Of a stretch of DNA of 44,211 nucleotides, positions 13,861 to 34,133 are shown piece after piece. Within the stretch, counting starts at the first letter, position 1; the number at the start of each line of letters is the position of its first letter. The notes under the pieces were generated by a model, which saw nothing but the letters and a program-made list of their open reading frames with translations, did not search any database and was not told the DNA's origin. Made by a program: the position numbers and the translations under genes. This DNA comes from Hyphomicrobiaceae bacterium (GTDB taxonomy: Bacteria > Pseudomonadota > Alphaproteobacteria > Rhizobiales > Xanthobacteraceae). The stretch is taken from assembly GCA_021324465.1 (NCBI GenBank), contig JAJPJB010000052.1:1-44211 (forward strand). The letters run 5' to 3'.

Positions 13861-13910
13861 GCGGTGGTGCCGTCCCCGGCTTCAAGCGGTGGTGCCGTCC
13901 CCGGCTTCAA
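13861..13910 (+). repeat. Perfect 25-base tandem duplication
   Basis: Two identical 25-base units, 13861-13885 and 13886-13910, each reading GCGGTGGTGCCGTCCCCGGC followed by TTCAA. They lie in the 390-base non-coding gap before the FixJ-like regulator. 25 is not a multiple of three, which argues against coding. Confidence 0.85.
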
Positions 13911-14857: not shown

Positions 14858-17800
14858 CTACCTCACCGCCTGCGCCCCGCTGAGCGCCATGCGGATCATC
14901 TGCGCCAATTGCGCCTTGCGGTAGGGCTTCGGCAGAAGCAGCACGCCCGGATCAAGCCGGCCGTGATGCATGATGGCGTTTTCCGCGTAGCCCGACGTGA
15001 ACAGCACCTTGAGTTTGGGGCGCCGCCTGACTGCCTCGTCGGCGAGTTCCTTGCCGTTCATCGCTCCGGGCATCACAATATCCGTGAATAACAGATCGAT
15101 CACCGAATCGCTGTCGATCAGCGCGAGCGCCTCGCTGGCATTGGTCGCGGCAAGCGTTCTGTAGCCCAAGCCGCGCACCTGGGCGACAACGTAATTGCGC
15201 ACCAATGGGTCGTCCTCGACCGTAAGCACGGTTTCGTGGCCGCCGTCGATCGGCATGAGTGCGGCGCCGTCGAGCTCCTGCGGCGCCTCGCCGCCGGCGC
15301 GCGGCAAATACATCTTGATCGTCGTGCCGTGGCCTTCTTCGCTGTAGATCTTGATGTGCCCGCCGGACTGTTTGACGAAGCCATAGACCATGCTCAATCC
15401 GAGCCCGGTGCCCTTGCCGACCGCCTTGGTGGTGAAGAAGGGATCGAACACTTTGTCGATGATGCCGGGCGGGATACCGCAGCCATTGTCGCTGACCGCG
15501 ATCATCACATAGGGACCGGGCCGGACGTCGGCATTGACGCTGGCGTAGCCGTCGTCGAGCACGACGTCGGCGGTTTCGATGGTCAGCTTGCCACCGTTCA
15601 ACATGGCATCGCGGGCATTGATGGCGAGATTGAGCAACGCGGTGGTGAGCTGATTGGCATCGACCACCGCCAGCGACGCATCGTCATCGAGCATGGATTC
15701 GATTTCGATATTCTCGCCGAGCGTCGACCGCAACAGCCGTCCCACCTCGACCGCCAGTTCATTGATGTCGACTTCGCGCGGCGCCAGCGGCTGTCGGCGC
15801 GAAAATGCCAGGAGGTGGCGCGTCAGCTCGGCGCCGCGTTCGGCCGCCTCCTCGATCATCCGCGCAACCGCCGCCATGTCCGGGCGATCCGCGACGCCTT
15901 CCTTCAGGGTTTCGATCGTGCCGGTGATCACGGTGAGGATATTGTTGAAGTCATGCGCAATGCCGCCGGTCAGCTGGCCGACCGCTTCCATCTTCTGCGC
16001 CTGACGCAGCTGGCGTTCGGTCTCCTGTGCCTCGGTGAGATCGCGATAGACCACAACCGCGCCGGCGTCTTTGCCGTTGCTGCGAATTGGAGCGCCGGTG
16101 GTCAGCAGAGTGAACGGCTTCTCGTCATGGGCCGGGCGCACCACGATTTCGTAATTCTCGAAGGTCTGGCCGCGCAACGCCCTCACCAGCGGCCGCTGCT
16201 CGAGCGGCAGCGGCGTCACGCCGTCCGCCATGAAGATGAATTTATCCTTCGACCATTCGCGCAGGCCCATCCCCGTGACGATGCCCATCAGGCGCGCGGC
16301 GGCCGGGTTCGACAGAACGATATTGGCGTCCGGATCGGCCACCAGCACCGCGTCCCTCATGCTGTTGATCGTATTGTCGAGGATGCCGGCGATGCGGCTG
16401 CGCTCGGCGATCTCCCGCTCCAGCGCTTCGCGCGCTTTTCTCTGCTCGGTGATGTCGCGGACGATCTTGCAGGCGCCGATGACCTGGGTCGATGACAATC
16501 TGATCGGAGAAACGCTGAGCGAGACCGGGATCGGCTGGCCCTCTCTGTTCACGCGGACCGTCGCATGATGATCAACGAGTTCGCCGTTGCGCACGCGCTT
16601 CAAAATGCCGCGGATCTCGGCGCGACGGTCGTCGGGCACAATGATGTCGATGCTGCGGCCGAGCATATCGTCGGCGCTCCAGCCAAACAGCCGTACCGCG
16701 GCCGGATTCCAGCCGGTCACGATGCCGTCCAGCGTCATGGTGATGATCGCATCGACCGAAGATCGTACCGCGGCGCTGAACAGCCGTTCGCGCTCGGCCT
16801 GCCGCTCGAGCTCGGCGGCGGTGCGGCGGTGCTCCTCGGCTTCTCGCGTGAGCGAGGCGGTCGTGGATCTTACATCGCGCATCATGCGCTTGAATGCCTG
16901 CCCCAGCACGGCGATTTCGCCGCCGGCTTTTGGAAGCGCGGCTTCACCACCGCCCGGAAAGCTCTCCACCGCCTTGGTCATTTGCACCAAAGGCCGCGTC
17001 AGCGAGCGCGCGAGCAGGACGGCAAGCGCGGTCGCGCAGAGTATCGAGATGACGCCGACCAAGAGCGTCGATTTTCCGACCGCGGCGATGGGCGCCATCA
17101 CAACGGCGTGCGGCGTGGTCTCGATCACGGCAAGGCGCGGACCTCCCGCCAGATTGAGCGACTGCAAGCCGGCGAGAACTCGCTCGCCGCGGCCATCGTC
17201 GATCAGCGCGCTCTTTGCCTGGGCGGCGCCGAAGCTCGCGACGAGCGCGGGAAAGTCGTTTTGCCAGCGTTGCGGTTTGCCGAGATCCGCGGCGAATTCC
17301 TGCGACGAGTCTGGGTGGACCAGATAATTGCCGCGCGCGTCGACGACATAAATCTGGCTGCGCGGCTGCGGGTTTGCCGCAAGCTCGCGCAGGATCGGCC
17401 GCATGTCGACATTGATGATGACGATGCCGAACGGCTTTCGGTCCGGCGTGTCAATTCTTGTCGCCACGTAAAGTACGGGCACATGCGGGACCTGTATCAC
17501 CCCGTGCTCGTAGTTGAATTCAACGGGCGAGACGTAGATTTGATCGGGCGGCGTTGCGATCGCAGAACTGAAAAAGGGCCCATCTGATTTTTGCTGAAGC
17601 TCGTCGTCGGGAACGATGCGGATTGCGCCGTCGGGGCCGGAACGGTCGACGCGAACCAGCTCTCGGCCGTCGGCGGCGATGATGCGGAATTGATCATAGG
17701 TGGTCTTCGCGGAAAGCTCCGCGACAAGCCGCTCGGCGATGCGCTGCCGCCAGGCGGCTTCGCTCGTGCCGCCCTCGGGGTCGGTGCCGCCGGCGAGATT

Positions 17801-18037
17801 GGCGCGCATGATGCCGGCGATCGCGACGGCTCTCTGGAAGCCGACAATGTCTTCGCGCGCGCCGCGCACCGCCCCTTGCAGCATCTGCGCCAGCAGGCGC
17901 ACATGGGCGTCCATCCGTTCCGCAGCGCGCGGCAGCGCGATGGCGCGGATGTTGCTATAGGTCAGTAGCCCCACCGCAAGCGCCGTCAGCACGGCCAGCA
18001 CCACCATCGCCAGCGCCATACGGGTCGAGAGCTTCAT
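14858..18037 (-). CDS. Membrane-bound hybrid sensor histidine kinase (CACHE-HAMP-PAS-PAS-HisKA-HATPase-REC)
   Basis: 1059 residues from ATG 18037; a TTG 13 codons earlier is less likely. Transmembrane segments at about residues 6-28 and 326-348 flank a periplasmic double-CACHE-like sensor. A HAMP linker, two PAS domains and a HisKA box with H695 (GGIAHDFNNILTVI) follow. The HATPase shows NLAINARDAM, DNGCGIP and GKGTGLGLSM. The C-terminal receiver has D986 (LLFTDIVMPGAMNG). The HDFNN box marks the subfamily common in soil alphaproteobacteria. The periplasmic part should sense a small extracellular ligand. A FixJ-like regulator lies convergently next to it. Confidence 0.92.
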   Translation of the reverse strand: MKLSTRMALAMVVLAVLTALAVGLLTYSNIRAIALPRAAERMDAHVRLLAQMLQGAVRGAREDIVGFQRAVAIAGIMRANLAGGTDPEGGTSEAAWRQRIAERLVAELSAKTTYDQFRIIAADGRELVRVDRSGPDGAIRIVPDDELQQKSDGPFFSSAIATPPDQIYVSPVEFNYEHGVIQVPHVPVLYVATRIDTPDRKPFGIVIINVDMRPILRELAANPQPRSQIYVVDARGNYLVHPDSSQEFAADLGKPQRWQNDFPALVASFGAAQAKSALIDDGRGERVLAGLQSLNLAGGPRLAVIETTPHAVVMAPIAAVGKSTLLVGVISILCATALAVLLARSLTRPLVQMTKAVESFPGGGEAALPKAGGEIAVLGQAFKRMMRDVRSTTASLTREAEEHRRTAAELERQAERERLFSAAVRSSVDAIITMTLDGIVTGWNPAAVRLFGWSADDMLGRSIDIIVPDDRRAEIRGILKRVRNGELVDHHATVRVNREGQPIPVSLSVSPIRLSSTQVIGACKIVRDITEQRKAREALEREIAERSRIAGILDNTINSMRDAVLVADPDANIVLSNPAAARLMGIVTGMGLREWSKDKFIFMADGVTPLPLEQRPLVRALRGQTFENYEIVVRPAHDEKPFTLLTTGAPIRSNGKDAGAVVVYRDLTEAQETERQLRQAQKMEAVGQLTGGIAHDFNNILTVITGTIETLKEGVADRPDMAAVARMIEEAAERGAELTRHLLAFSRRQPLAPREVDINELAVEVGRLLRSTLGENIEIESMLDDDASLAVVDANQLTTALLNLAINARDAMLNGGKLTIETADVVLDDGYASVNADVRPGPYVMIAVSDNGCGIPPGIIDKVFDPFFTTKAVGKGTGLGLSMVYGFVKQSGGHIKIYSEEGHGTTIKMYLPRAGGEAPQELDGAALMPIDGGHETVLTVEDDPLVRNYVVAQVRGLGYRTLAATNASEALALIDSDSVIDLLFTDIVMPGAMNGKELADEAVRRRPKLKVLFTSGYAENAIMHHGRLDPGVLLLPKPYRKAQLAQMIRMALSGAQAVR

Positions 18038-18243
18038 CGCCGCGCTCGTGCGAAATGACGTCGGAACCCTGCGCAATTACTGTCGAAGCAAGATACAACT
18101 TCCGACTGTCTCGCCGTGCAAGCTAAATTATCGGCAGTCCCTGCAGGGCGCCAAGGCCCGGTTCTCAAATTTATTGGCATTCCCTCGGGCGCGTCCGTGG
18201 TCTGCATATCCAAAGGCCGCCGCGCTGGTTTATGGTTGGCCGC
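18038..18243. other. Divergent promoter region, hybrid kinase / alcohol dehydrogenase
   Basis: 206 bases between two divergent starts. It must contain promoters for both genes; I cannot assign convincing hexamers. No repeat or open frame of note. Confidence 0.4.
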
Positions 18244-19230: not shown

Positions 19231-20814
19231 TCACGACGAGACACGGCCTTGGCTGCGCCGAAGCAATTCGGCTCGCGCCTGGTCCAGCGTTTCTTCGGGC
19301 GAGCCTGACGCATCGATGATTTCCCAAGCTACATCGCCGATGGCGTAATCCTCCTGCCGGCGCGCGATAGTAGTGTCGGCGTCCGATGCATCGGGACCGC
19401 GTGATCCGACGCGGCTCAATCGCGTCGACAGATCGGCAACAAGAAACAATCCGTGAAAATCGGCGCCGCTGTCGATCGCCTTGGCCTCGATGGCCGCGCG
19501 CTGATGCGGCCTGGCGAAAACCGCGTCGACGATGACCGAATGACCGGCGCGCGCGACGCGCCCGGCCTTGTCGATCAACAGCGCGTAGACCTGCGCGGTG
19601 ATTTCGGGTCGATAGGCCTCGATCGGCAAACGCTCGTTTTCGGCGCTGCCATGCAGCGCCTTGCGCTCGACATCGGAGCGAAGTACCAGCGCTCCCGGCA
19701 GCGGTGCAAGCAAAGGCGCCAGCGCACGGGCCAGCACCGATTTTCCGGTGCCGGATAATCCGCCGGTGCAGACGATCATCGGTTTGTTCGGCTGCAGAAG
19801 CTTCAGCGCCAGCGCGAAATATTTTTGCGCCGACCGTGCCAGGGCATCTTTGTCTGCCGGTGCCGTGAGCGCGAGTTTTGCCGCTGTGACCTTGGCGCGG
19901 ATGGCGGCGCGCAGCGACATGAAAAACGGCAGGGCGGCAATGCCGTCGCAGTCCTCGACGCGGCGCGCCGCGGCAAAATACCCGTTCAGGACGATATTGG
20001 CGCTGCGCTCCAGGCCGCGCTCGACGAGATCCATCAAGAGAAAAGCGAGATCATAGAGCAGGTCGCCTGCGGCGAACGTCGGGTCGAATTCCAGCGCGTC
20101 GAAGGCAACAGGGTCGCCGTCGAGAACGGCGACATTGCCGAGATGAAGATCGCCGTGGCCGCGACGAATGAGTCCTAACCTGCCGCGCGCCACGAGCAGC
20201 GGGCGCAGCCGCGAGAGAGTCGCCAGCATTTTTTGTTGCAGCGCCGCGACGTCGCCGCGCGCAAACAGATCACCACGTGCGTCGAACGCGGCGGTGTTTT
20301 CGATGATGAACCCTTCGAGCGCGGCAATCCAGGCGCTCGGCTCGACCGGACTGGCGCGCTCATGCATCGCGGCAACGGCGATTGCGAGCTTGTGCGCCAG
20401 CGTGTCGTCCAGCTCGCCGCGCGCGGCGAGATGATCGAGCGTCGCGTTCTCGTCGAACCGCGCCATTTCCACCGCCCATTCCACCGGCTCACCGGCGCCG
20501 TCCAAGGCGAGCGCTCCATCCGCCTCGCGCGTGATCGGCACGATACGCCGATAGAGCTGCGGCGCGAAAGCGCGGTTGACCGCGAGCTCGGCCGCACAGG
20601 CGGCCTTGCGCTTGTCCAAGGTCGAATAATCGAGAAACGGATATCGCACCGCGCGCTTGATCTTGATCGCGCGGTCGCCGGCCAGAAACACGCTCGCCGC
20701 ATGGGTGTCGCAGCGCCGCACCTCGGCGACACCATAGGTCGCAGGATCGGCGAGCAGCTTTAACACGGCGGCTTGCGACCTGTGCATCGTGGGCGCGGAG
20801 TTGACGTCTGACAT
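19231..20814 (-). CDS. Fused aminoglycoside phosphotransferase-like kinase and AAA/P-loop kinase protein
   Basis: 527 residues with two parts. The N-terminal half has an APH/choline-kinase fold with the catalytic Brenner motif HGDLHLGN (220-227) and a downstream DALEFDP. The C-terminal half is a P-loop kinase of the Zeta-toxin/shikimate-kinase-like AAA_33 type with Walker A GGLSGTGKS (351-359). This fusion is a known conserved arrangement in proteobacteria (COG2187 plus COG0645) without a settled substrate; it is not evidence of aminoglycoside resistance. It is divergent from the MgtC gene. Confidence 0.87.
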   Translation of the reverse strand: MSDVNSAPTMHRSQAAVLKLLADPATYGVAEVRRCDTHAASVFLAGDRAIKIKRAVRYPFLDYSTLDKRKAACAAELAVNRAFAPQLYRRIVPITREADGALALDGAGEPVEWAVEMARFDENATLDHLAARGELDDTLAHKLAIAVAAMHERASPVEPSAWIAALEGFIIENTAAFDARGDLFARGDVAALQQKMLATLSRLRPLLVARGRLGLIRRGHGDLHLGNVAVLDGDPVAFDALEFDPTFAAGDLLYDLAFLLMDLVERGLERSANIVLNGYFAAARRVEDCDGIAALPFFMSLRAAIRAKVTAAKLALTAPADKDALARSAQKYFALALKLLQPNKPMIVCTGGLSGTGKSVLARALAPLLAPLPGALVLRSDVERKALHGSAENERLPIEAYRPEITAQVYALLIDKAGRVARAGHSVIVDAVFARPHQRAAIEAKAIDSGADFHGLFLVADLSTRLSRVGSRGPDASDADTTIARRQEDYAIGDVAWEIIDASGSPEETLDQARAELLRRSQGRVSS

Positions 20815-21894: not shown

Positions 21895-22302
21895 TGCCGG
21901 CGCCCCTAAGTGCCTCGATCTGTTAAAAAGATGCGGGGCTTGACTTGGTTCCTGTGGCGTTCCGCCGCCGGGCCGGATTTATCCACAGAAGCCGTCCGGA
22001 AAACCGGCTCCGGCAATGTTGTCCGGAACCTTCTTTGACCGACCGCGTTTGCGTCAAGGCACAAAGGCCGAGGTGGATCGTGAGGGGGAGTTCACGCCGA
22101 ATCGGGCGGCTTAGGCTGCGGGACTTGTTCCCGCTGGGCAGGTTCCATGCTGCGTCAAAGCGCCGCCGACGCTGGCTCCGGGCGCGGCGGCCGGCCGAGT
22201 CCACAACAGAACACCACCCGCTAACAGAACACTACGCGCTCGAGCGCCACATCCTCGATTACCGTATGCTCGACGGCGTGCGGCTGGGTTTCGGAGAGAT
22301 CT
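21895..22302. other. Long leader region of the poly-HAMP kinase
   Basis: 408 bases between the small hypothetical gene and the giant kinase, which are divergent. It contains an EcfG-like promoter at 22025-22049 and therefore possibly a 5' untranslated region of about 240 bases. GGAGA sits 6 bases before the kinase start. I see no convincing small gene in it. Confidence 0.5.
22025..22049 (+). promoter_or_regulatory. Candidate EcfG (general stress sigma factor) promoter
   Basis: GGAAC (22025-22029), a 16-base spacer and CGTT (22046-22049) match exactly the alphaproteobacterial EcfG consensus GGAAC-N16/17-CGTT. It reads rightward, about 250 bases before the poly-HAMP kinase. Such a 9-base match is expected by chance roughly once in a window this size on both strands, so the intergenic position and orientation carry much of the weight. 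Confidence 0.5.
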
Positions 22303-25300
22303 ATGCGGACCACTAGAACTGGTGCGCGTGCCGGACGGAACGGTACGCCGGTATCCCCGATTCCCCAGATTGCCAAGGCGGTGGCAAAACAGGCCCGGGA
22401 ATCGCTCAATGGCGACACTGATGCGCACGGCCTGACTGAGCTGTTGCACGCGCTGCGGGCGATGCGGGTCGGCGACTTCTCGGTGCGCATGTCCGGCGAC
22501 CGCGTCGGCATCATCGGCAAGATCGCCGATACATTTAATGACATCGTTGCCACCAATCAGCGCATGGCCCGCCAGCTCGAGCGGGTCGGCCAGGTGGTCG
22601 GCCGTGACGGTCGCACCCGCCAGCGCGTGCGCTTCGGCCTGTCCGACGGCGCCTGGGGTGAGATGGAGGCGAGCGTCAATTCGCTGATCGATGATCTGTT
22701 GTGGCCGACCACGGAGGTGACCCGCGCCATCGCCGCGGTGGCGCAGGGCGATCTGCTGCAGACCGTGCCGCTCGATGTCGACGGCCGGCGGCTCAAAGGT
22801 GAGTTCCTGCGCTCGGCCGAGATCGTCAACCGGATGATCAAGCAGCTCAATGTGTTCACGTCCGAGGTGACGCGCGTCGCGCGCGAGGTCGGCACCGAGG
22901 GCAAGCTTGGCGGCCAGGCCCAGGTCGGCGGCGTGACCGGCGTGTGGAAGGAGTTGACCGAATCGGTCAACTCGATGGCCTCCAACCTGACCGCGCAGGT
23001 CCGCAACATCGCCGAAGTGACCATCGCGGTCGCCAACGGCGACCTGTCGAAAAAGATCACCGTCGACGTGCGCGGCGAAATTCTGCAGCTCAAGGAAGCC
23101 ATCAATACGATGGTCGATCAGCTGCGCTCGTTTGCGTCGGAGGTGACGCGCGTCGCGCGCGAGGTCGGCACCGACGGCAAGCTCGGCGGCCAGGCCATCG
23201 TGCCCGGCGTTGCCGGCACCTGGAAGGATTTGACCGACTCGGTCAACGCCATGTGCGGCAACCTGACCGACCAGGTGCGCAACATCGCGCATGTGACCAC
23301 GGCCGTGGCGCGCGGCGACCTGTCGCGCAAGATCACCGTCGACGTGCGCGGCGAAATTTTGGAGCTGAAGGACACCATCAACACGATGGTGGACCAGCTC
23401 AATGCGTTTGCTTCGGAAGTCACGCGCGTCGCCCGCGAGGTCGGCACCGAAGGCAAGCTCGGCGGCCAGGCGCAGGTGCCGGGCGTCGCCGGCACCTGGA
23501 AGGACCTGACCGACAGCGTCAACTTCATGGCCGGCAACCTCACCGCGCAGGTGCGCAATATTGCCGACGTTGCCACCGCCATCGCCGGCGGCGACCTGTC
23601 GAAGAAGATCACGGTCAACGTCTCCGGCGAAATTCTGCAGCTCAAAGAAACCATCAACACGATGGTCGATCAGCTCAACGCCTTCGCCGGCGAGGTGACG
23701 CGGGTGGCGCGCGAGGTCGGCACCGAGGGCCGCCTGGGCGGCCAGGCCAATGTGCTCGGCGTCGCCGGTACCTGGAAGGACCTGACCGACTCGGTCAACT
23801 CGATGGCGTCGAACCTGACCGCGCAGGTCCGCAATATCGCCGAAGTGTCGACGGCCATCGCCAATGGCGACCTGTCGAAGAAAATCACCGTCGACGTGCG
23901 CGGCGAAATCCTCGAGCTGAAAGACACCATCAATACCATGGTCGACCAGCTCAATGCCTTCGCCGGCGAGGTGACGCGCGTCGCGCGCGAGGTCGGCACC
24001 GAAGGCAAGCTCGGCGGCCAAGCCATGGTGCGCGGCGTCGCCGGCACGTGGAAAGACTTGACCGACTCGGTCAACTCGATGGCTTCGAATCTGACCGGCC
24101 AGGTGCGCAACATCGCCGAGGTCGCCACCGCCGTGGCGCGCGGCGACCTCTCCCGCAAGATCACCGTCGACGTGCGCGGCGAGATTTTGGAGCTGAAGGA
24201 TACGCTCAACACAATGGTCGACCAGCTCAACGCGTTTGCCGCCGAGGTGACGCGCGTTGCGCGCGAGGTCGGCACCGAAGGCAAGCTCGGCGGCCAGGCG
24301 CAAGTGCCGGGCGTCGGCGGCACCTGGAAGGACCTGACCGACTCGGTCAATTCCATGGCGTCGAACCTCACCGCGCAGGTGCGCAATATCGCCGAAGTGT
24401 CGACCGCCATCGCCAACGGCGACCTGTCGAAGAAGATCACGGTCGACGTGCGCGGCGAGATCCTGCAGCTGAAGGAAACGCTGAACACGATGGTGGATCA
24501 GCTCAACCGCTTCGCCGGCGAGGTGACGCGTGTCGCGCGCGAGGTCGGCACCGAAGGCCGGCTCGGCGGTCAGGCCAACGTCCCGGGCGTCGCCGGTACC
24601 TGGAAGGATTTAACCGACAGCGTCAACTCGATGGCCGGCAATCTCACGGCGCAGGTGCGCAACATCGCCGAGGTCACCACCGCGGTGGCGCGCGGCGATC
24701 TCGGGCGCAAAATCACCGTCGACGTGAAGGGCGAAATTCTCGAGCTGAAGAACACCATCAATACGATGGTGGACCAGCTCAACGCCTTTGCCTCAGAAGT
24801 GACGCGCGTCGCGCGCGAGGTCGGCACCGAAGGCAAGCTCGGCGGCCAGGCGCAAGTGCCCGGCGTCGCCGGCACCTGGAAGGACCTCACCGACAATGTC
24901 AACTTCATGGCGTCGAACCTGACCGCACAGGTGCGCAACATCGCCGAGGTTGCGACCGCCATCGCCGGCGGCGACTTGTCGAAGAAGATTACCGTCGACG
25001 TACGCGGCGAAATGCTGCTGCTCAAAGACACGCTCAACACGATGGTCGAGCAGCTGCGCTCCTTTGCCGCCGAGGTGACGCGCGTGGCGCGCGAGGTCGG
25101 CACCGACGGCCGGCTCGGCGGTCAGGCGGTGGTGCCGGGCGTCGCCGGCACCTGGAAGGACCTCACCGACAACGTCAACCTGCTGGCGGCAAATCTCACC
25201 ACGCAGGTGCGCAATATCGCCGAAGTGACCACGGCCGTGGCGCGCGGCGACCTCAGCCGCAAGATCACCGTCGATGTGAAGGGCGAAATCCTCGAACTGA

Positions 25301-28300
25301 AGAACACCATCAATACAATGGTTGACCAGCTCAACGGCTTCGCCTCGGAAGTGACGCGCGTGGCGCGCGAGGTTGGCACCGAAGGTCTGCTCGGCGGCCA
25401 GGCGGTGGTGCCGGGCGTCGCCGGCACCTGGAAGGACCTGACCGACACCGTCAACGTGATGGCCGCCAACCTGACCGAACAGGTGCGCGGCATCGTCAAG
25501 GTGGTGACCGCCGTCGCCAACGGCGATCTCAAGCAGAACCTCGCGGTGAAATCCAAAGGCGAGGTGGCGGCGCTCGCCGAGACCATCAACAATATGACTG
25601 AGACGCTCGCGACCTTCGCCGACCAGGTGACCACGGTAGCCCGCGAAGTCGGCGTCGAAGGGCGGCTCGGCGGCCAGGCCAACGTGCCAGGCGCGGCCGG
25701 TACGTGGAAGGATTTGACCGGCAACGTCAACCTGCTCGCGGCGAATTTGACCACGCAGGTGCGCGCCATCGCCGAGGTGGCGACCGCGGTGACCAAGGGC
25801 GACCTGACGCGCTCGATTCAGGTGGATGCGCGCGGCGAGGTGGCCGAGCTTAAAGACAATATCAACACCATGATCGACAATTTGCGGCTCACCACCGACC
25901 GCAATACCGAACAGGATTGGCTGAAGACCAACCTCGCCCGCTTCACCAATATGTTGCAGGGCCAGCGCGACCTGACCACGGTCGGCCGCCTATTGCTCTC
26001 CGAACTCACGCCGCTGGTCAATGCGCAGCAGGGCGTCATCTATCAGATGGAAGGCGAGGAGCCGCAGGAGCGTCTCAATCTGCTCGCCGCCTATGCCGAT
26101 GACGAACCGGGCCGCCATCCGCAGATGCTGCGGCTTGGCGAGGGCCTGATCGGCCAGTGCGCGCTCGACAAGCGACGCCTGTTGATCAACGAGATTCCCG
26201 AGAACGTGGTGCCGATCTCGTCGGCTCTGTTCAAAGTGCCGCCGCGCAACATCATCGTGCTGCCGGTGCTGTTCGAAAATCAGGTCAAGGCGGTGATCGA
26301 GCTCGCCTCGGTCCACGAATTCACCGCGCTGCAGACCATGTTTCTCGAGCAGCTCACCTCGTCGATCGGCATCGTGCTCAACTCGATCGAAGCGACCATG
26401 CAGACCGAAGGCCTGCTCAAGCAGTCGCAGCAGCTGGCCGGAGAGTTGCAGGCGCAGCAGAAGGAGCTGCAGCAGACCAACGAACAGCTCGAACAGAAGG
26501 CGCAGCAGCTCGCCGAGCGCAACGTCGAAGTGGAGCGCAAGAACCAGGAAATCGAGCAGGCACGGCGCGCGCTCGAGGAAAAGGCCACCGAGCTGGCGCT
26601 GACCTCGAAGTACAAGTCGGAATTCCTGGCCAATATGTCGCACGAGCTGCGCACGCCGCTCAATTCGATCCTGATCTTGGGCCAGCAGCTCTCCGACAAT
26701 CCGGAAGGCAATCTGACCCCGAAACAGGTCGACTTCGCCCGCACCATTCACGGCGCCGGCACCGACCTGCTCAACCTCATCAGCGACATTTTGGACTTGT
26801 CGAAAATCGAGTCCGGCACCGTTACGGTCGATGCCGAAGAAGTGTTCTTCTCCAATCTGCTCGACATGGTGGCGCGGCCCTTCCGCCACGAGGCGGAGAC
26901 GCGGCAGTTGTCGTTCGAGGTTCACGTCGATCCCAATCTCGGCCGCACCATCACGACCGATACCAAGCGCTTGCAGCAGGTGCTCAAGAACCTCCTGTCG
27001 AACGCGTTCAAGTTCACCGCGCAGGGCGGCGTGCGCCTGACCGTGAATGCCGCCGCCGGCGGCTGGACCGCCGATCACCCGGTGCTGAGCCAGGCCTCGG
27101 CCGTGGTGTCCTTCGAAGTCACCGATACCGGCATCGGCATTCCGCAGGAGAAGCAGAAGATCATCTTCGAGGCGTTCCAGCAGGCCGACGCCTCGACCAG
27201 CCGCAAATATGGCGGCACCGGCCTCGGCCTGGCCATCAGCCGCGAACTGGCGAGCCTGTTAGGCGGCGAAATCCACCTGCGCAGCGCGCCGGGCCAGGGC
27301 TCGACCTTCACGCTCTATCTGCCGATCAAATATGCCGGTCCGAGTTCGCCGTTGCACGGCACGGCCGCAACGGCGGCCACCGGCGGCGCCGCGCAGCTGC
27401 CCGGCGTGCCTGTTGTACCGGAGCGTCCGGTCGAGCCGATCCCGGACGACCGGCTCGACATCCAGGCCGGCGACGCCATTCTCCTCATCGTCGAGGACGA
27501 CCCGCATTATGCCCGCATCCTGGTCGATCTCGCGCGCGACAAGGGCTTCAAGGCGCTGTTGGCGATGCGCGGCGACGATGCGCTCAATCTTGCCAAGCAA
27601 TATCAGCCGACCGCGGTCTCGCTCGACGTGTTCCTGCCCGACATGCTCGGCTGGAACGTGCTGAGCCAGCTCAAGCAGAACCCGCTGACGCGGCACATTC
27701 CGGTGCAGATCGTCTCGCTCGACGAGGACCGGCAGCACGGGCTCGCCCGCGGCGCCTTTGCCTTCGTCAATAAGCCGACCACGCGGGAGGGCATCGAGGA
27801 AGCGCTCTCGCGCATCAAGGAATTCGCCGAGCCGCGCAAGAGGCGCCTCCTGGTGGTCGAGGACAATGCCGTCGAGCAGATGAGCATCGACGAATTGCTT
27901 GGTCACGACGATATCGAGATCATCAACGTCGAGACCGGCGGCGAGGCGTTGACCGCGCTGCGCGAGACTCCATGCGATTGCGTCGTGCTGGATCTGCGCC
28001 TGCCGGACATGTCGGGCTTCGAAGTGCTCGAACGGATGCGCGCCGACAGCGCGCTTGCCGAAGTCCCGGTCGTTGTTTTTACCGGCCGCGAATTGTCGGC
28101 CGAAGAGGACGCGCAGCTGCACAGCATGGCGCGCAGCATCGTGGTCAAAGGCGTCGAATCGCCGGAGCGGCTGCTCGATGAGACCGCGCTGTTTTTGCAC
28201 CGCATTATCACCGATCTGCCGCCGGAAAAGCAGCAGATGCTGCAGCGACTCAATTCTTCGGACGAAGACCTGGTCGGCCGCACGGTTCTGCTCGTCGACG

Positions 28301-28644
28301 ACGATCCGCGCAACATTTTCGCGCTGTCGAGCGCGCTGGAGCGTCGCGGCATGAACGTGCTGACCGCAACTACCGGCGCCGAGGCGATTTCCATCATCAG
28401 GGAGACGCCGTCGCTTTCGATCGTGCTGATGGACATCATGATGCCGGAAATGGACGGCTATCAGACCATTGAGCAGATTCGCCGGGACAAGGCCCATCGC
28501 CGATTGCCGATCATCGCCTTGACTGCCAAGGCGATGAAGGGCGACCGCGAAAAGTGCCTGCAGGCCGGCGCCTCCGATTACCTTGCCAAGCCCGTCAATA
28601 CCGAACAGCTGCTCTCCGCATTGCGGATGTGGCTGCATCGCTGA
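22303..28644 (+). CDS. Giant cytosolic poly-HAMP hybrid histidine kinase (Nik1/group III-like) with three receivers
   Basis: 2113 residues with no transmembrane segment. Order: about 187 N-terminal residues with diverged HAMP-like units; eleven exact 92-residue HAMP repeats (188-1199); a GAF domain (about 1215-1365); a Gln/Glu-rich coiled coil (about 1370-1435); a HisKA box with H1447 ([17 protein letters not shown]); a HATPase with [19 protein letters not shown] and [10 protein letters not shown]; an Ala/Pro linker; and three receivers with phospho-acceptors D1775, D1897 and D2044. Nik1-type fungal kinases, about 1300 residues, use five or six such repeats to sense osmotic and oxidative stress or fungicides; bacterial homologues exist. 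Three receivers imply internal phosphorelay or sink behaviour. The start is ATG 22303 with GGAGA upstream. The downstream kinase follows 12 bases later. Confidence 0.93.
22864..25899 (+). repeat. Eleven tandem 276-base repeats encoding HAMP units
   Basis: Exactly 11 units of 276 bases with no insertion or deletion between them. Each encodes [17 protein letters not shown]..., a [11 protein letters not shown] block, an [12 protein letters not shown] block, a [16 protein letters not shown] block and [11 protein letters not shown]. Units 1-9 are close to identical at the protein level; units 10 and 11 are clearly diverged. Many stretches are also the same at base level, so recombination, and misassembly from short reads, are both possible. 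Confidence 0.97.
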
Positions 28645-28656
28645 GAGGCGGCGCCG

Positions 28657-30636
28657 ATGAACCAAGCAGCCGACGAGAAGTCCAACGAGACATCGTGCGA
28701 GAAGGCCGCCGATAGGCTCGGCGAGCGCGGCGATGAGGCGGACGGGAAGGTCAACGTCCTTCTGGTCGACGACCAGCCTGACAAGCTTCTCGCCTACGAG
28801 GTGATTCTCGGCCAGCTCGGCGAGAATCTGGTGAAGACGTCGTCGGCGCGCGAGGCGCTGCAGTTCCTGCTCAAGAACGACGTCGCCGTAGTGCTGATCG
28901 ATGTCTGCATGCCCGAGCTCGACGGGTTTCAGCTCGCGGCAATGATCCGCGATCATCCGCGCTTCGCCAAGACGGCGATCATCTTTATTTCGGCAATCCA
29001 CCTGACCGAGGTCGACCGGCTGCGCGGCTATGAGATGGGCGCAGTCGATTACGTGCCGGTCCCGGTCGTGCCCGAGGTGCTGCGTGCCAAGGTGCGGATC
29101 TTCTGCGAGCTGTTCCGCAAGACGCGCGCGCTCGAGCGGCTCAATTCGCAGCTCGAGCGCCGGGTCGTCGAGCGCACCGCCGAGCTCGAGGCCTCCAATC
29201 TGCGGGTCACGCAGAGCGAGCAGGGCAGAAGCCTGGCGCTTGCCGCCGGTCAAATGGGCTCCTGGGACTGGGATCTCCTCACCGATGAATGGAAATGGGA
29301 CGAAGGCCAGCACCGCATCTTCGGCGTCGATCCCGGCACGTTCAAAGTCAGCGCCGAAGGTCTGCGCGCGCTGATTCATCCGGACGATTGGCGCCGGCTC
29401 GAACAGGTCGCCCAAGGCATGACCGAGGGTGCGCGCACCTATCAGGCCGAGTTTCGCGTGCTGCGCCCAAATGGCCAAGTCCGCTGGTGCATCGGCAGCG
29501 CCGCGGCGAGCGTCGATGCATCGGGCAAGGTGGTGCGCGTCTCCGGCGTCACCATCGATGTCACCGATCGCAAGGAGGCCGTGGAGCGCCAAGTGCTGCT
29601 GGCGCGCGAGGTCGATCACCGCGCGCGCAATGCGCTTGCCGTGATCCAGTCGATCATCAGGCTGACGCGCGCCAAAACGGTGGAAGACTACGTGCAGGCG
29701 ATCGAAGGCCGCATCAAGGCGCTGGCGCGCGCGCATACGCTTCTCTCCGACTCGCGCTGGAACGGCGCCGATCTGGCGACGCTGGTCGCCGACGAGCTGG
29801 CGCCGTACCGCGCCGGCGACAAGATCCAATGCGTCGGTCCCGATATCTCGCTGCAGCCGGCGACCGCACAAGGCCTGGCGCTCGCGCTGCACGAGCTTGC
29901 CACCAACGCCGCCAAGCATGGCGCGCTGTCGTCGCCGAGCGGCAAGATCCGGCTCGTCTGGGAATTGCACCACGACGCCCTGATGCTGCACTGGGACGAG
30001 AGCGGCGGCCCCGCCATTGCGCCGCCGTCGGCCCGCAATTTCGGTCTCAAAGTCATTGTCGCCAGCATCGAGCAGCAGCTCGGCGGCCGCGCCGAGTTCG
30101 ACTGGAACCCGAAGGGGCTGCGCTGCGTTTTTTCGATTCCACGCAGCGAATTGACGAAGTCGCGCACCTTTAGCCTGGCGCGCAACGGCGTCAGCGGCAA
30201 CGGCGCCACGATCGACCTGAACCAGCAGGAGCGGCCGCGCGTGCTGCTGGTCGAAGACGAGGCGCTGGTCGCGATGATGATCGCCGAAACGCTTGCCGAT
30301 TTCGGCTTCCAAGTGCTGGGACCGCTGAGCACGGCATCGGAGGCCCTGGCAGCCGCGCGCGAGCGCCATCTCGACGCCGCCGTGCTCGACATCAACCTGG
30401 GTGACGGTCTTGTCTATACGGTGGCCGAGATTTTGGTGAAGCGCGGCGTTCCCTTCGTGTTCGTCACCGGTTACGACGCCGAGAGCGTCGATCCGCGTTT
30501 CGACGGCGCCCCGATCCTGCAGAAGCCGATCGAGCGCGATGCGCTGCGCAGGGTGTTTGTGCAGGAGCAGGAATCGCAGACCGTGCCGCAAGGCCGCGAC
30601 CTGCGTGGCCCCGATCACGCGGTCGCCGTCAACTGA
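28657..30636 (+). CDS. Receiver-PAS-HWE histidine kinase-receiver hybrid protein
   Basis: 659 residues, cytosolic. An N-terminal receiver (about 32-150) has D82 (VVLIDVCMPELDGF). A coiled-coil linker (about 155-200) leads to a PAS domain (about 200-315) with WDWDLLTDEW and a PAC-like IDVTDRKEAVE end. The HWE-type box EVDHRARNALAVIQSI has H321. The HATPase shows LALHELATNAAKHGALS, then the family WxE element (RLVWELHHDALMLHW). The C-terminal receiver (about 525-645) has D578 (AVLDINLGDG). It starts 12 bases after the poly-HAMP kinase stop with GAGAGG between, so the two are surely cotranscribed. The N-terminal receiver is a natural acceptor for phosphate from the upstream kinase; that link is inference. 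Confidence 0.92.
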   Translation: MNQAADEKSNETSCEKAADRLGERGDEADGKVNVLLVDDQPDKLLAYEVILGQLGENLVKTSSAREALQFLLKNDVAVVLIDVCMPELDGFQLAAMIRDHPRFAKTAIIFISAIHLTEVDRLRGYEMGAVDYVPVPVVPEVLRAKVRIFCELFRKTRALERLNSQLERRVVERTAELEASNLRVTQSEQGRSLALAAGQMGSWDWDLLTDEWKWDEGQHRIFGVDPGTFKVSAEGLRALIHPDDWRRLEQVAQGMTEGARTYQAEFRVLRPNGQVRWCIGSAAASVDASGKVVRVSGVTIDVTDRKEAVERQVLLAREVDHRARNALAVIQSIIRLTRAKTVEDYVQAIEGRIKALARAHTLLSDSRWNGADLATLVADELAPYRAGDKIQCVGPDISLQPATAQGLALALHELATNAAKHGALSSPSGKIRLVWELHHDALMLHWDESGGPAIAPPSARNFGLKVIVASIEQQLGGRAEFDWNPKGLRCVFSIPRSELTKSRTFSLARNGVSGNGATIDLNQQERPRVLLVEDEALVAMMIAETLADFGFQVLGPLSTASEALAAARERHLDAAVLDINLGDGLVYTVAEILVKRGVPFVFVTGYDAESVDPRFDGAPILQKPIERDALRRVFVQEQESQTVPQGRDLRGPDHAVAVN

Positions 30637-30878: not shown

Positions 30879-31610
30879 ATGCAGGTGCCCTGTTATGAAT
30901 GTGAATTGCGCTCATGCGGCTTGTTCAAGCGGATAACGCCCGATGAGCTCGGATCCATCAACGAGATCAAGCGCGAACACTTGGCCTTGCCGGCCGGCAG
31001 CGAGATCATTCGCGCGGGCGACGAATCTCCCGAACTTTACACGCTCTACGCCGGCTGGGCGTTCCGCTTCAAGATGCTGGCCGACGGGCGCCGGCAGATC
31101 CTGAATTTTCTTTTGCCCGGCGACCTGTGCGGGCTGCAGGCGGCCATGTTCGATGCCGCGCTCTACGGCATCGAGGCGCTGACCGATGTCGAAATCTGCG
31201 TACTGCCGCGCAGGAAAGTGTGGACGCTGTTCGATCAAAAGCCGGGTCTTGCCTTCGACGTCGCTTGGCTCGGCGCACATTCGAAGAGCCTGGTCGACGA
31301 GAATCTGACCAGCGTCGGCTGCCGCACGGCTGCAGAACGTGTCGCCGCCCTCATTGTCATGCTCTACAAGCGGCTGAAGCTTCTCGGCATGGTCGCCGCC
31401 GACAGCAGCTTCGAATTCCCGCTCACCCAGCAGCACATCGCCGATGCGCTGGGGCTTTCCCTGGTGCATACCAACAAAACGCTGGCGAAGCTCCGGCGCC
31501 TGGGCATGTTCAAATTGGCCAAGGGAAGGCTCACGCTTGCCAACCCGCGCGTGCTCGCACGCGTGGCGCTTTATTTCGACGAGGAAGTGCCGCAGCGGCC
31601 GCTGATTTGA
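30879..31610 (+). CDS. Crp/Fnr-family transcriptional regulator with a cysteine-rich N-terminus
   Basis: 243 residues. A cyclic-nucleotide-binding-like beta-roll (about 20-130) includes FLLPGDLCGLQAAMFD. A dimerisation helix follows, then a Crp-type winged helix-turn-helix (about 180-225: LTQQHIADALGLSLVHTNKTLAKL). The first 13 residues contain C5, C8 and C13 (CYECELRSC), and C84 lies in the beta-roll, an arrangement reminiscent of the four cysteines of FNR oxygen sensors, although spacing differs. It may be a redox- or Fe-S-responsive regulator, or only bear a vestigial motif. It follows the stress-kinase operon by 242 bases and may be its output or simply a neighbour. Confidence 0.88.
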   Translation: MQVPCYECELRSCGLFKRITPDELGSINEIKREHLALPAGSEIIRAGDESPELYTLYAGWAFRFKMLADGRRQILNFLLPGDLCGLQAAMFDAALYGIEALTDVEICVLPRRKVWTLFDQKPGLAFDVAWLGAHSKSLVDENLTSVGCRTAAERVAALIVMLYKRLKLLGMVAADSSFEFPLTQQHIADALGLSLVHTNKTLAKLRRLGMFKLAKGRLTLANPRVLARVALYFDEEVPQRPLI

Positions 31611-31667: not shown

Positions 31668-31886
31668 GCGATTGCGGGAACTGGACGTTTCCCGTGCATC
31701 AGGCCAAGCTATTATGCCGGCAACGGAATCGCCTTTATCAACGATCCTGAATCCGCCCGGGCGACTTTCTTCGTCAAGCCTTCTACGCTGCCGGCCGAGG
31801 AGAAGAACGATTCGCAAGCCACGGTGGGCAACCAAGACTCGCCGCCTCGAGTCAAGGCCGGGAATCCGCGAAAGAGAGAGCGATGA
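31668..31886 (+). pseudogene. Possible truncated gene remnant overlapping the metallopeptidase start
   Basis: After TAG 31665-31667 a frame stays open for 72 codons to TGA 31884-31886, with G/C-rich third positions and a protein-like translation (YYAGNGIAFINDPESARATF, then FVKPSTLPAEEKNDSQ). No ATG opens it and no good start is visible. Its stop overlaps the next start as ATGA. The upstream edge is a degenerate GTCATTGCGAGGAG-type repeat (31633-31660). The likeliest reading is the C-terminal remnant of a gene cut off by repeat sequence; it may also be chance. Confidence 0.3.
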
Positions 31887-32992
31887 AGCTATTCAAGTGC
31901 CAGAATTGCGGGCAGTTGACCTATTTCGAAAATAATCATTGCGAAAAATGTGGCCGCCGCCTCGGCTTTCTCCCGGCGATCATGAATCTGTCGGCGCTCG
32001 AGCCGGATGGCGATCGCTCGCGCGGCACTTGGCGTGCGCTTGCGGTCGATAAGAAGCGCTATCGATTTTGCGCCAACGATGCCTACGATGTCTGCAATTG
32101 GATGATCGACGCGGATCTGCCCGAGGCGTTTTGCGTCGCCTGCCGGCATAACCGCACCATTCCAAACGTGAGCGTGCCGGACAATGTCGTCGCCTGGCGC
32201 AAGATCGAGCGCGCCAAGCACATGCTGTTTTACACCTTGATGAAGCTCAATCTGCCGCTCGATGAGAAGGACGCCGGCGGAAGCTTGCGGCTGCGTTTCG
32301 ATTTTCTCAAGAGCCCGCCGCATACCGAGGCGCCACGGGTGATGACCGGCCACGATAACGGCCTGATCACGCTCGCGCTGGAAGAGGCCGACGATGCCGA
32401 GCGGGAACGTCGTCGCACCATGATGCGCGAGCCGTACCGCACGCTGGTCGGCCATTTCCGCCATGAGGTCGGACATTATTATTGGGACTTGCTGGTGCGC
32501 GACGGCGGCCTGGTCGAAGCGAGCCGCAAAATCTTCGGCGATGAAACCGCCGATTACGACGCGGCGTTGACAGCCTATTATGCCAACGGCGCGCCGCCGG
32601 ATTGGCAGGACAATTACATCAGCGCCTATGCCACCGCGCATCCGTGGGAAGACTTTGCCGAGACCTGGGCGCACTATCTGCACATCGTTGATACACTGGA
32701 AATGGCGCGCGCCTTCGGCATGTATGTACATCCGCGGCTGGCGCGTCCGGGCGAGCTCGATGCCCAGGTCGATTTCGATCCCTATGCGGTGCGCGAACCA
32801 TCGTCCTTGATCGAGACCTGGGTGCCGCTGAGCAATGCGCTCAACAGCCTCAATCGCACCATGGGCCTGCCGGATCTCTATCCGTTCATCCTGTCGCCGC
32901 GGGTGATCGACAAGCTGAGCGCGATTCACCATCTCATTCACGGCAACAAGCTGCCGGAAAAGGTGCCGGTCGCGGCAGACTCGGTGGCTTAG
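31883..32992 (+). CDS. Putative zinc-binding metallopeptidase with N-terminal zinc ribbon
   Basis: 369 residues, soluble. An N-terminal zinc ribbon has CQNC (C6, C9) and CEKC (C20, C23), and more cysteines follow near residues 64-87 (FCANDAYDVC, FCVACRHN). The gluzincin-like motif HEVGH (H194, E195, H198) sits in GHFRHEVGHYYWDLLV, and a conserved HPWEDFAETWAHYLHIVDT region downstream may supply the third ligand. This matches the family annotated as putative zinc-binding metallopeptidase in proteobacteria, with unknown substrate. The start is ATG 31883 preceded by GAGAGAG. Confidence 0.87.
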   Translation: MKLFKCQNCGQLTYFENNHCEKCGRRLGFLPAIMNLSALEPDGDRSRGTWRALAVDKKRYRFCANDAYDVCNWMIDADLPEAFCVACRHNRTIPNVSVPDNVVAWRKIERAKHMLFYTLMKLNLPLDEKDAGGSLRLRFDFLKSPPHTEAPRVMTGHDNGLITLALEEADDAERERRRTMMREPYRTLVGHFRHEVGHYYWDLLVRDGGLVEASRKIFGDETADYDAALTAYYANGAPPDWQDNYISAYATAHPWEDFAETWAHYLHIVDTLEMARAFGMYVHPRLARPGELDAQVDFDPYAVREPSSLIETWVPLSNALNSLNRTMGLPDLYPFILSPRVIDKLSAIHHLIHGNKLPEKVPVAADSVA

Positions 32993-34035: not shown

Positions 34036-34060
34036 AACTCGTCTGCGACACTTGCGTTCC
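34036..34060 (-). promoter_or_regulatory. EcfG-like promoter for the DUF1236 gene
   Basis: On the minus strand GGAAC (34060-34056), a 16-base spacer and AGTT (34039-34036) match the EcfG consensus with one mismatch in the -10. It lies about 85 bases before the DUF1236 start. The -35 is part of the first unit of the 27-base tandem repeat. Confidence 0.35.
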
Positions 34061-34133
34061 ATTTGATGCCGCCAAAATTTGCGTTCCATTTGATGCCGCC
34101 AAAATTTGCGTTCCATTTGATGCCGCCAAAATT
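34054..34133 (+). repeat. Three tandem 27-base repeats
   Basis: Period-27 units start at 34054, 34081 and 34108, each beginning GCGTTCCATTTGATGCCGCC and ending AAAATTT; the last lacks the final T. On the minus strand each unit carries GGAACGC. There are no variable spacers, so this is not a CRISPR. It occupies the divergent region between the DUF1236 gene and csbD. Confidence 0.95.

Follow-up and report, generated by a model that had tools for sequence, protein, structure and literature searches.

Among described proteins, those closest in layout to the one analysed here are AskA and AskB of Myxococcus xanthus and Amb07 of Sorangium cellulosum, which are likewise soluble and combine an extended poly-HAMP region, a histidine kinase and several receivers. 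According to PMC7643160, partial domain matches that recur over the HAMPs were returned by SMART, 11 in AskB (each a pair of matches), 6 in AskA and 9 in Amb07, which suggests that the three proteins may hold about as many units. The same paper names one AskA receiver Rec3, implying at least three receivers, places askC, a hybrid kinase with a receiver, directly downstream of askB in M. xanthus, identifies AskC as the ambruticin-binding part, and reports a two-hybrid interaction between the AskC receiver and AskA Rec3. The input sensed by long HAMP chains, and the reason for their many modules, are unsettled in bacteria and fungi, and fungal kinases with such chains mediate fungicide action. 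Here a further member of this known kind, the soluble poly-HAMP hybrid kinases, is described from 44,211 nucleotides of a Hyphomicrobiaceae bacterium (GCA_021324465.1, contig JAJPJB010000052.1, positions 1-44,211, forward strand; hereafter the window). Its HAMP units appear to be conserved position by position, and its gene is followed by a conserved partner gene.

Position-specific conservation of the HAMP array

The array consists of eleven regular units, and a twelfth, degenerate unit was found ahead of them with a hidden Markov model (HMM) of the unit. Units were compared by position among 65 proteins with 12 units. Depending on position, a unit found its best match in another species at the corresponding position in 73-100% of species pairs, and the mean same-position identity between species was 93%, compared with 84% between units 2-10 inside one array. 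The units thus appear to keep their positional identity between species, a property that looks new. In shorter arrays with ten units (n=15) the first and last two units best match the first and last two of the window, and the inner units are mostly out of register with it.

Mean identity to the window protein across 64 homologues was 94-96% for the eleven units, 95% for the coiled coil that precedes the kinase, 93% for HisKA and 83% for HATPase, and was lower in the receivers (76-79%, with the bounds of receivers 1 and 2 about 20 residues off in this comparison), the GAF domain (66%) and the N-terminal tail (12%). The ratio of nonsynonymous to synonymous substitution (dN/dS), calculated for eight pairs, was 0.03-0.08 in the eleven units, 0.03-0.09 in the coiled coil and HisKA and 0.06-0.25 in HATPase, and reached 0.11-0.28 in the degenerate N-terminal HAMP stretch, 0.09-0.23 in the receivers and 0.17-0.49 in GAF. 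Synonymous differences in these pairs were 0.35-0.57, those of the array being somewhat lower (0.36-0.43) than in most other regions. By these measures conservation of the eleven units equals that of the kinase core, and among the domains it is lowest in GAF, a pattern that also looks new. Identity and dN/dS argue that selection maintains the array at each position, and that GAF is freest to change.

Architecture of the kinase

Pfam recognised 11 HAMP (PF00672) and 11 HAMP_2 (PF18947) stretches in the kinase, together with GAF_2, HisKA, HATPase_c and three Response_reg domains. The open reading frame (ORF), Pfam and hydropathy agree with the layout given in the initial annotation, namely eleven 92-residue units, GAF, coiled coil, HisKA, HATPase and three receivers with no membrane segment. 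His1447 and the phospho-acceptor Asp and Lys of all three receivers are kept in 65/65 aligned proteins, the window included. A 19-residue hydropathy mean of 1.6 is the usual threshold for a membrane segment, and as the highest mean in the kinase, located within GAF, is 1.51, no such segment was identified in it. The Pfam architecture and the lack of a membrane segment also support its earlier description as a soluble bacterial poly-HAMP kinase akin to fungal Nik1, with a GAF domain; as a predicted protein of this type, its input would have to be cytoplasmic.

Tandem Repeats Finder (TRF) places the array at 22862-25810, with a period of 276 bp and 10.7 copies. The anchor VT(R/T)VAREVG occurs eleven times, first at residue 189, next at 281 and last at 1109, with every gap exactly 92. 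The eleven units had been called exact, which holds for their spacing but not for their sequences, as unit-to-unit identity is 60-91% for protein and 64-87% for DNA, the last two units being the most divergent. The final residues of the unit block (189-1200) extend into the linker. Within the degenerate stretch ahead of it (residues 43-188) Pfam HAMP_2 is above, and HAMP below, its curated cut-off.

A unit of 92 residues is about twice as long as a HAMP domain. When the halves of one unit were tested against Pfam HAMP, the second was recognised and the first alone was not, and profile comparison of unit halves gave a weak match (probability 4.9, E 0.008). As read by eye in the alignments, both halves have a connector of the poly-HAMP type, with a single Gly and without the DExG motif, which is the mark of canonical, membrane-associated HAMPs (PMC3570549). 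Given this length, the size known for HAMP domains and the divergence among HAMPs described in the literature, a unit probably comprises two of them, and the whole protein would then hold about 25, counting residues 43-188. Pfam matches to the DNA-binding families SpoIIID and HTH_6, and to GatB, were also met in the array, but were rejected as domains since no stretch passes alone.

The AlphaFold model of the N-terminal array has a mean predicted local distance difference test score (pLDDT) of 52 and is usable for its helix-loop rhythm alone; a fold search of the PDB with it gave no match at E <= 0.001. For the model from GAF to the kinase (pLDDT 75.6) the fold matches were headed by kinase cores such as those of GacS and RetS, and these gave no indication of a GAF ligand.

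Repeat number among homologues

Units were counted in 125 loci (L001, L009-L012, L038-L117 and L195-L234), of which 94, the window included, remained once end-cut or duplicate loci were removed. These loci are related rather than independent, and the 80 from the contig search are the best 80 of 518 and hence biased to close relatives. The commonest form, with 12 units and three receivers, accounts for 65/94 full-length kinases including that of the window. The remainder have 10 units with two receivers (8) or three (7), 9 with three (3), 7 with three (3) or 8 with two (2); forms with 11, 5 and 4 units, all with three receivers, are represented by one kinase each, and 3/94 are other hybrid kinases without any unit. 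Eleven plasmid records, counted separately, have 12 units in 3 cases, 11 in 1, 10 in 4 and 9 in 3. The number of repeats and receivers, which the initial annotation had taken to be unusually high, is therefore typical of the homologues examined, and the view of the kinase as an expanded counterpart of the fungal proteins loses its expansion part. That annotation also held that a characterised homologue with the same repeat number would count against it; AskB, with an inferred count of about 11, is probably such a case.

All full-length genes from the contig search with fewer than 12 units (L046, L053, L077, L087 and L091) come from metagenome-assembled genomes (MAGs), and their shorter arrays may be assembly losses. 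Some short arrays are probably real, as 9-unit forms are present on the complete plasmids L237, L238 and L243. The 9-unit arrays of L053 and L221, which belong to different genomes, lack an identical set of three inner units (5-7 of 12); this may reflect repeated contraction or assembly loss.

The spread of the family was determined, with the own genome counted, using the C-terminal 924 residues (E <= 1e-120) or the whole protein (E <= 1e-100). The C-terminal query matched in 30/387 genomes of the class, 101/397 of the phylum and 35/297 of the order, and the whole protein in 25/61 genomes. Many of the phylum matches are open frames of just ~1000-1400 residues, and as those checked carry no unit, these counts are upper bounds for the kinase family. 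The sole full-length match in the own genome is the protein itself, and the nearest named relatives are Xanthobacteraceae MAGs.

A conserved partner gene

Downstream genes were sought on the same strand only, as the longest ORF starting -60 to +500 bp from the kinase. A gene with an N-terminal receiver, its start offset by -59 to +208 bp, was found in 113/118 homologous loci in which the downstream sequence was long enough, a conserved partner that the earlier reading of the locus had overlooked. The regularity of this pairing, which resembles that of askB and askC, also looks new. The five loci without a receiver-first gene are L218-L220, in whose kinases no HAMP unit was found, L217 and L229. 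When ten downstream proteins were scanned, eight consisted of an N-terminal receiver and a kinase, the kinase module being HWE in three (L060, L050 and L057) and HATPase_c in five (L067, L197, L208, L210 and L213), four of these with HisKA; of the other two, L229 is a CheR protein and L217 has no family. As the kinase module differs among these proteins, the N-terminal receiver appears to be the constant part of the partner. In L229 a CheR methyltransferase follows a 10-unit poly-HAMP kinase in place of the usual receiver kinase. What we take to be a FATGUY-like receiver motif was found as a loose pattern in 54/118 partners, the partner of the window being cut at the locus end, and was not used.

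An EcfG-type motif upstream of the kinase

The site ahead of the kinase gene matches the motif published for EcfG1 of Rhizobium etli (PMC3892343). With spacers of 16-17 the only other site in the window is on the + strand at 30104, within the partner gene; the - strand has none. The 800 bp upstream of the first unit were scanned in 91 loci for GGAAC-N15-18-CGTT, and this strict motif was found in 25/91 regions, compared with a mean of 1.0 and a maximum of 3 in 50 rounds of shuffling and with 29/1712 control tiles. The shuffles keep dinucleotides approximately and the tiles mix coding and non-coding DNA; a scan of spacings from 8 to 27 is the better control, and gave 22 of the 91 loci at 16, 3 at 17 and <=4 at any other spacer. 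Base composition is therefore no explanation for the peak at 16. The motif is a putative sigma-EcfG promoter, and its enrichment upstream of these kinases looks new. PhyR is encoded in the own genome (362.8 bits; cut-off 240), with two EcfG-type motifs adjoining it. PhyR is usually activated by HWE/HisKA2 kinases (PMC6599016, PMC12148442), and in Sphingomonas melonis sigma-EcfG controls trehalose genes and the orphan hybrid kinase #1746 (PMC6599016).

Neighbouring genes and other features

Other neighbours of the pair were clustered, excluding clusters overlapping or antisense to it, and the most frequent recurs in 23/112 loci. The trehalose and glycogen genes treZ and malQ come after the pair on two Rhizobium plasmids (L236 and L244); treZ was absent from the other annotated plasmid neighbourhoods examined, and no trehalose gene was found among 11 window proteins scanned with Pfam, a subset of the window genes. 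On plasmids of Azospirillum and Novosphingobium (L239 and L240) three genes come after the pair, one small and hypothetical and two encoding DUF5985 proteins. Features of the kinase locus and of the rest of the window are listed in Table 1.

Table 1. Features of the kinase locus and further observations in the window
Feature	Position	Strand	Basis or detail
Poly-HAMP hybrid histidine kinase	22303..28644	+	single ORF, ATG start, 2113 amino acids
Degenerate N-terminal HAMP stretch, residues 43-188, ~3 putative HAMPs	22429..22866	+	unit HMM; Pfam; 9trk alignment
Eleven 92-residue units, residues 189-1200, each probably two HAMPs	22867..25902	+	TRF, Pfam, anchors, alignments
GAF domain, residues 1222-1359 (Pfam GAF_2)	25966..26379	+	Pfam; predicted model
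Coiled coil joining GAF to HisKA, residues 1360-1436	26380..26610	+	one long helix in model; 95% mean identity among homologues
HisKA with phospho-acceptor His1447 (Pfam stretch 1438-1505)	26614..26817	+	Pfam; residue check
HATPase_c, residues 1553-1675	26959..27327	+	Pfam
Receiver 1 (bounds approximate), Asp1775, Lys1824	27481..27822	+	Pfam; residue check
Receiver 2 (bounds approximate), Asp1897, Lys1949	27847..28197	+	Pfam; residue check
Receiver 3, residues 1995-2107, Asp2044, Lys2096	28285..28623	+	Pfam; residue check
Partner gene, receiver-PAS-HWE kinase-receiver, 659 amino acids, 12 bp after kinase stop	28657..30636	+	Pfam
Sigma-EcfG type promoter-like site, GGAAC-N16-CGTT, 253 bp ahead of ATG	22025..22049	+	motif scan
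Crp/Fnr-type regulator, after the kinase pair	30879..31610	+	nearest NCBIfam models FnrL and FixK, below cut-off
Zinc-ribbon and putative zinc metallopeptidase (Peptidase_Mx) gene	31883..32992	+	
Second hybrid kinase: Cache-type sensor, weak HAMP, PAS, HisKA, HATPase, receiver	14858..18076	-	
Single protein uniting APH-type kinase domain and AAA_33 P-loop domain	19231..20814	-	
Perfect tandem repeat, 27 bp, three copies	34052..34133		
Perfect repeat, 25 bp x 2	13861..13910		

Proposed mechanism and alternative explanations

The anatomy of the kinase, its conserved residues, the conservation pattern, the gene pairing and the promoter motif are established here. The best reading of them, which we regard as reasonably probable, is that kinase and partner form an AskB/AskC-like two-kinase module tied to the alphaproteobacterial general stress response. 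The kinase would be soluble and presumably dimeric, and would pair with the downstream receiver-PAS-HWE kinase as AskB does with AskC. Its HAMP chain would act as a rod, the state of which may be relayed through GAF and the coiled coil to HisKA, and phosphate could then pass to the three receivers of the kinase itself as well as to the receiver at the N terminus of the partner. The HWE module of the partner may in turn feed the general stress network through PhyR-type targets, and sigma-EcfG, if the upstream site is an active promoter, would induce the operon and provide feedback. In this reading the role of the array would be to sense or tune, not to act as a spacer.

Several observations weigh against this stress-response module. 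Conservation is lower in the degenerate N-terminal HAMP stretch than in the other units, with a mean identity of 76% across the 64 homologues. The kinase of the partner is not always HWE, even at the fairly close loci L067 and L197, and because the module varies in this way the link from HWE to PhyR is not universal. The strict motif is lacking from 66/91 upstream regions, many of them from Bradyrhizobium, and when one base of CGTT is relaxed it is found in 47/91, where single other spacers give 4-17/91. It is also present on the reverse strand of 11/91 of the same regions, likewise with a peak at 16 (10/91), where it perhaps serves divergent stress genes. In the own genome it is rarer than its backward control (74 vs 126 sites), and the site of the window is 253 bp from the ATG, whereas the EcfG motifs of S. 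melonis cluster in the first 100 bp (PMC6599016).

It is possible, although on balance improbable, that the kinase is a Nik1-style osmosensor, its array sensing osmolarity, crowding or ionic change. The soluble poly-HAMP layout is the same as in Nik1, treZ and malQ follow the pair on the two Rhizobium plasmids, trehalose genes are under sigma-EcfG in S. melonis (PMC6599016), and the Ask kinases of M. xanthus influence its glycerol response (PMC7643160); against this, the scanned proteins of the window include no trehalose gene and the other annotated plasmid neighbourhoods are without treZ. Sensing of osmotic or oxidative stress would draw indirect support from the EcfG-type motif and from the trehalose genes on the two plasmids. 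A bolder form of the proposal, which we offer tentatively and consider doubtful, is that the array itself senses directly in the cytoplasm through units that are each specialised, with each of the 12 positions under its own selection. It would then act as a graded, position-coded mechanical rod reporting a physical condition of the cytoplasm (osmolarity, crowding or ions), and together with the partner it would both supply input to the general stress response and receive input from it.

GAF domains often bind small ligands, and the GAF of this kinase is its fastest-changing domain, as ligand sensors can be, so that sensing could rest with GAF alone, the HAMP array serving passively as a spacer or as a rod for dimerisation. 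This is unlikely, as constraint at the level of the kinase core (dN/dS 0.03-0.08) and unit identity kept by position in 73-100% of species pairs are not expected of a passive spacer, and the array precedes GAF and is unnecessary for linking it to the kinase. Much less likely still is that the array binds DNA and the kinase acts at promoters, as proposed for AskB: AskB bound PmrpC DNA in vitro, and SpoIIID and HTH_6 matches like those seen here were met by the M. xanthus authors in AskA and AskB (PMC7643160), but in the window kinase they are probably helix look-alikes, because none passes alone and the best stretches fall inside HAMP units. That the repeat number is an assembly artefact is scarcely credible: although the own genome is a 107-contig draft and many homologous contigs break off within the array, the longest exact repeat in the gene is 50 bp, 12 units are present in finished records (the complete chromosome L057 and the complete plasmids L235, L236 and L244) and in 65/94 full-length homologues, where they correspond by position, and on this sequence evidence an assembly accident is an improbable source of the copy number.

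Comparison with known systems

The family supplies naturally occurring arrays, most of them with 7 to 12 units, a record of conservation at each position from which deletions can be planned, a regular partner gene and a probable promoter, and its hosts include rhizobia and relatives amenable to manipulation. The question of whether a HAMP array is a sensor or a spacer thereby becomes directly testable, and unit-by-unit conservation, a partner kinase and a stress-type promoter make this a useful case for sensing by HAMP chains. In the open-licence literature we found no named alphaproteobacterial member of this kind of kinase, and no report of the positional conservation, the pairing across alphaproteobacteria or the EcfG-type motif.

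The fungal group III kinases (Nik1/Os-1, Bos1, TcsC) are alike in being cytoplasmic poly-HAMP hybrid kinases, and are, to our knowledge, without GAF and with one receiver. They have five to six HAMP repeats (PMC3418262), whereas the window kinase has 11 and one degenerate unit, and they are called fungal-specific (PMC11253588) and act on the high-osmolarity glycerol (HOG) pathway, whereas the window kinase is bacterial. A close relative in the PDB is 9trk ('histidine kinase, Gcn4p'), with residues 44-327 of which window residues 37-320 align (E 3e-113); 9trk and 9trj are short constructs of 356 and 264 residues fused to GCN4. The tri-HAMP of Aer2 from Pseudomonas aeruginosa, a soluble receptor, is similar in its concatenated HAMPs (a weak match to 3vol, E 0.0008) but differs in having three plus two HAMPs, a PAS domain and the output of a chemoreceptor, not a kinase (PMC3570549). 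Expansion or contraction of a poly-HAMP tract is described in one case, at MXAN_6735 between two Myxococcus species (PMC4603909).

AskA, AskB and Amb07 belong to another phylum, their signals are ambruticin and glycerol, and their partners MrpC and FruA are myxobacterial. The layout of AskB and AskC is nevertheless shared by the window, in which a poly-HAMP kinase is followed by a receiver kinase, a likeness drawn from description and gene order.

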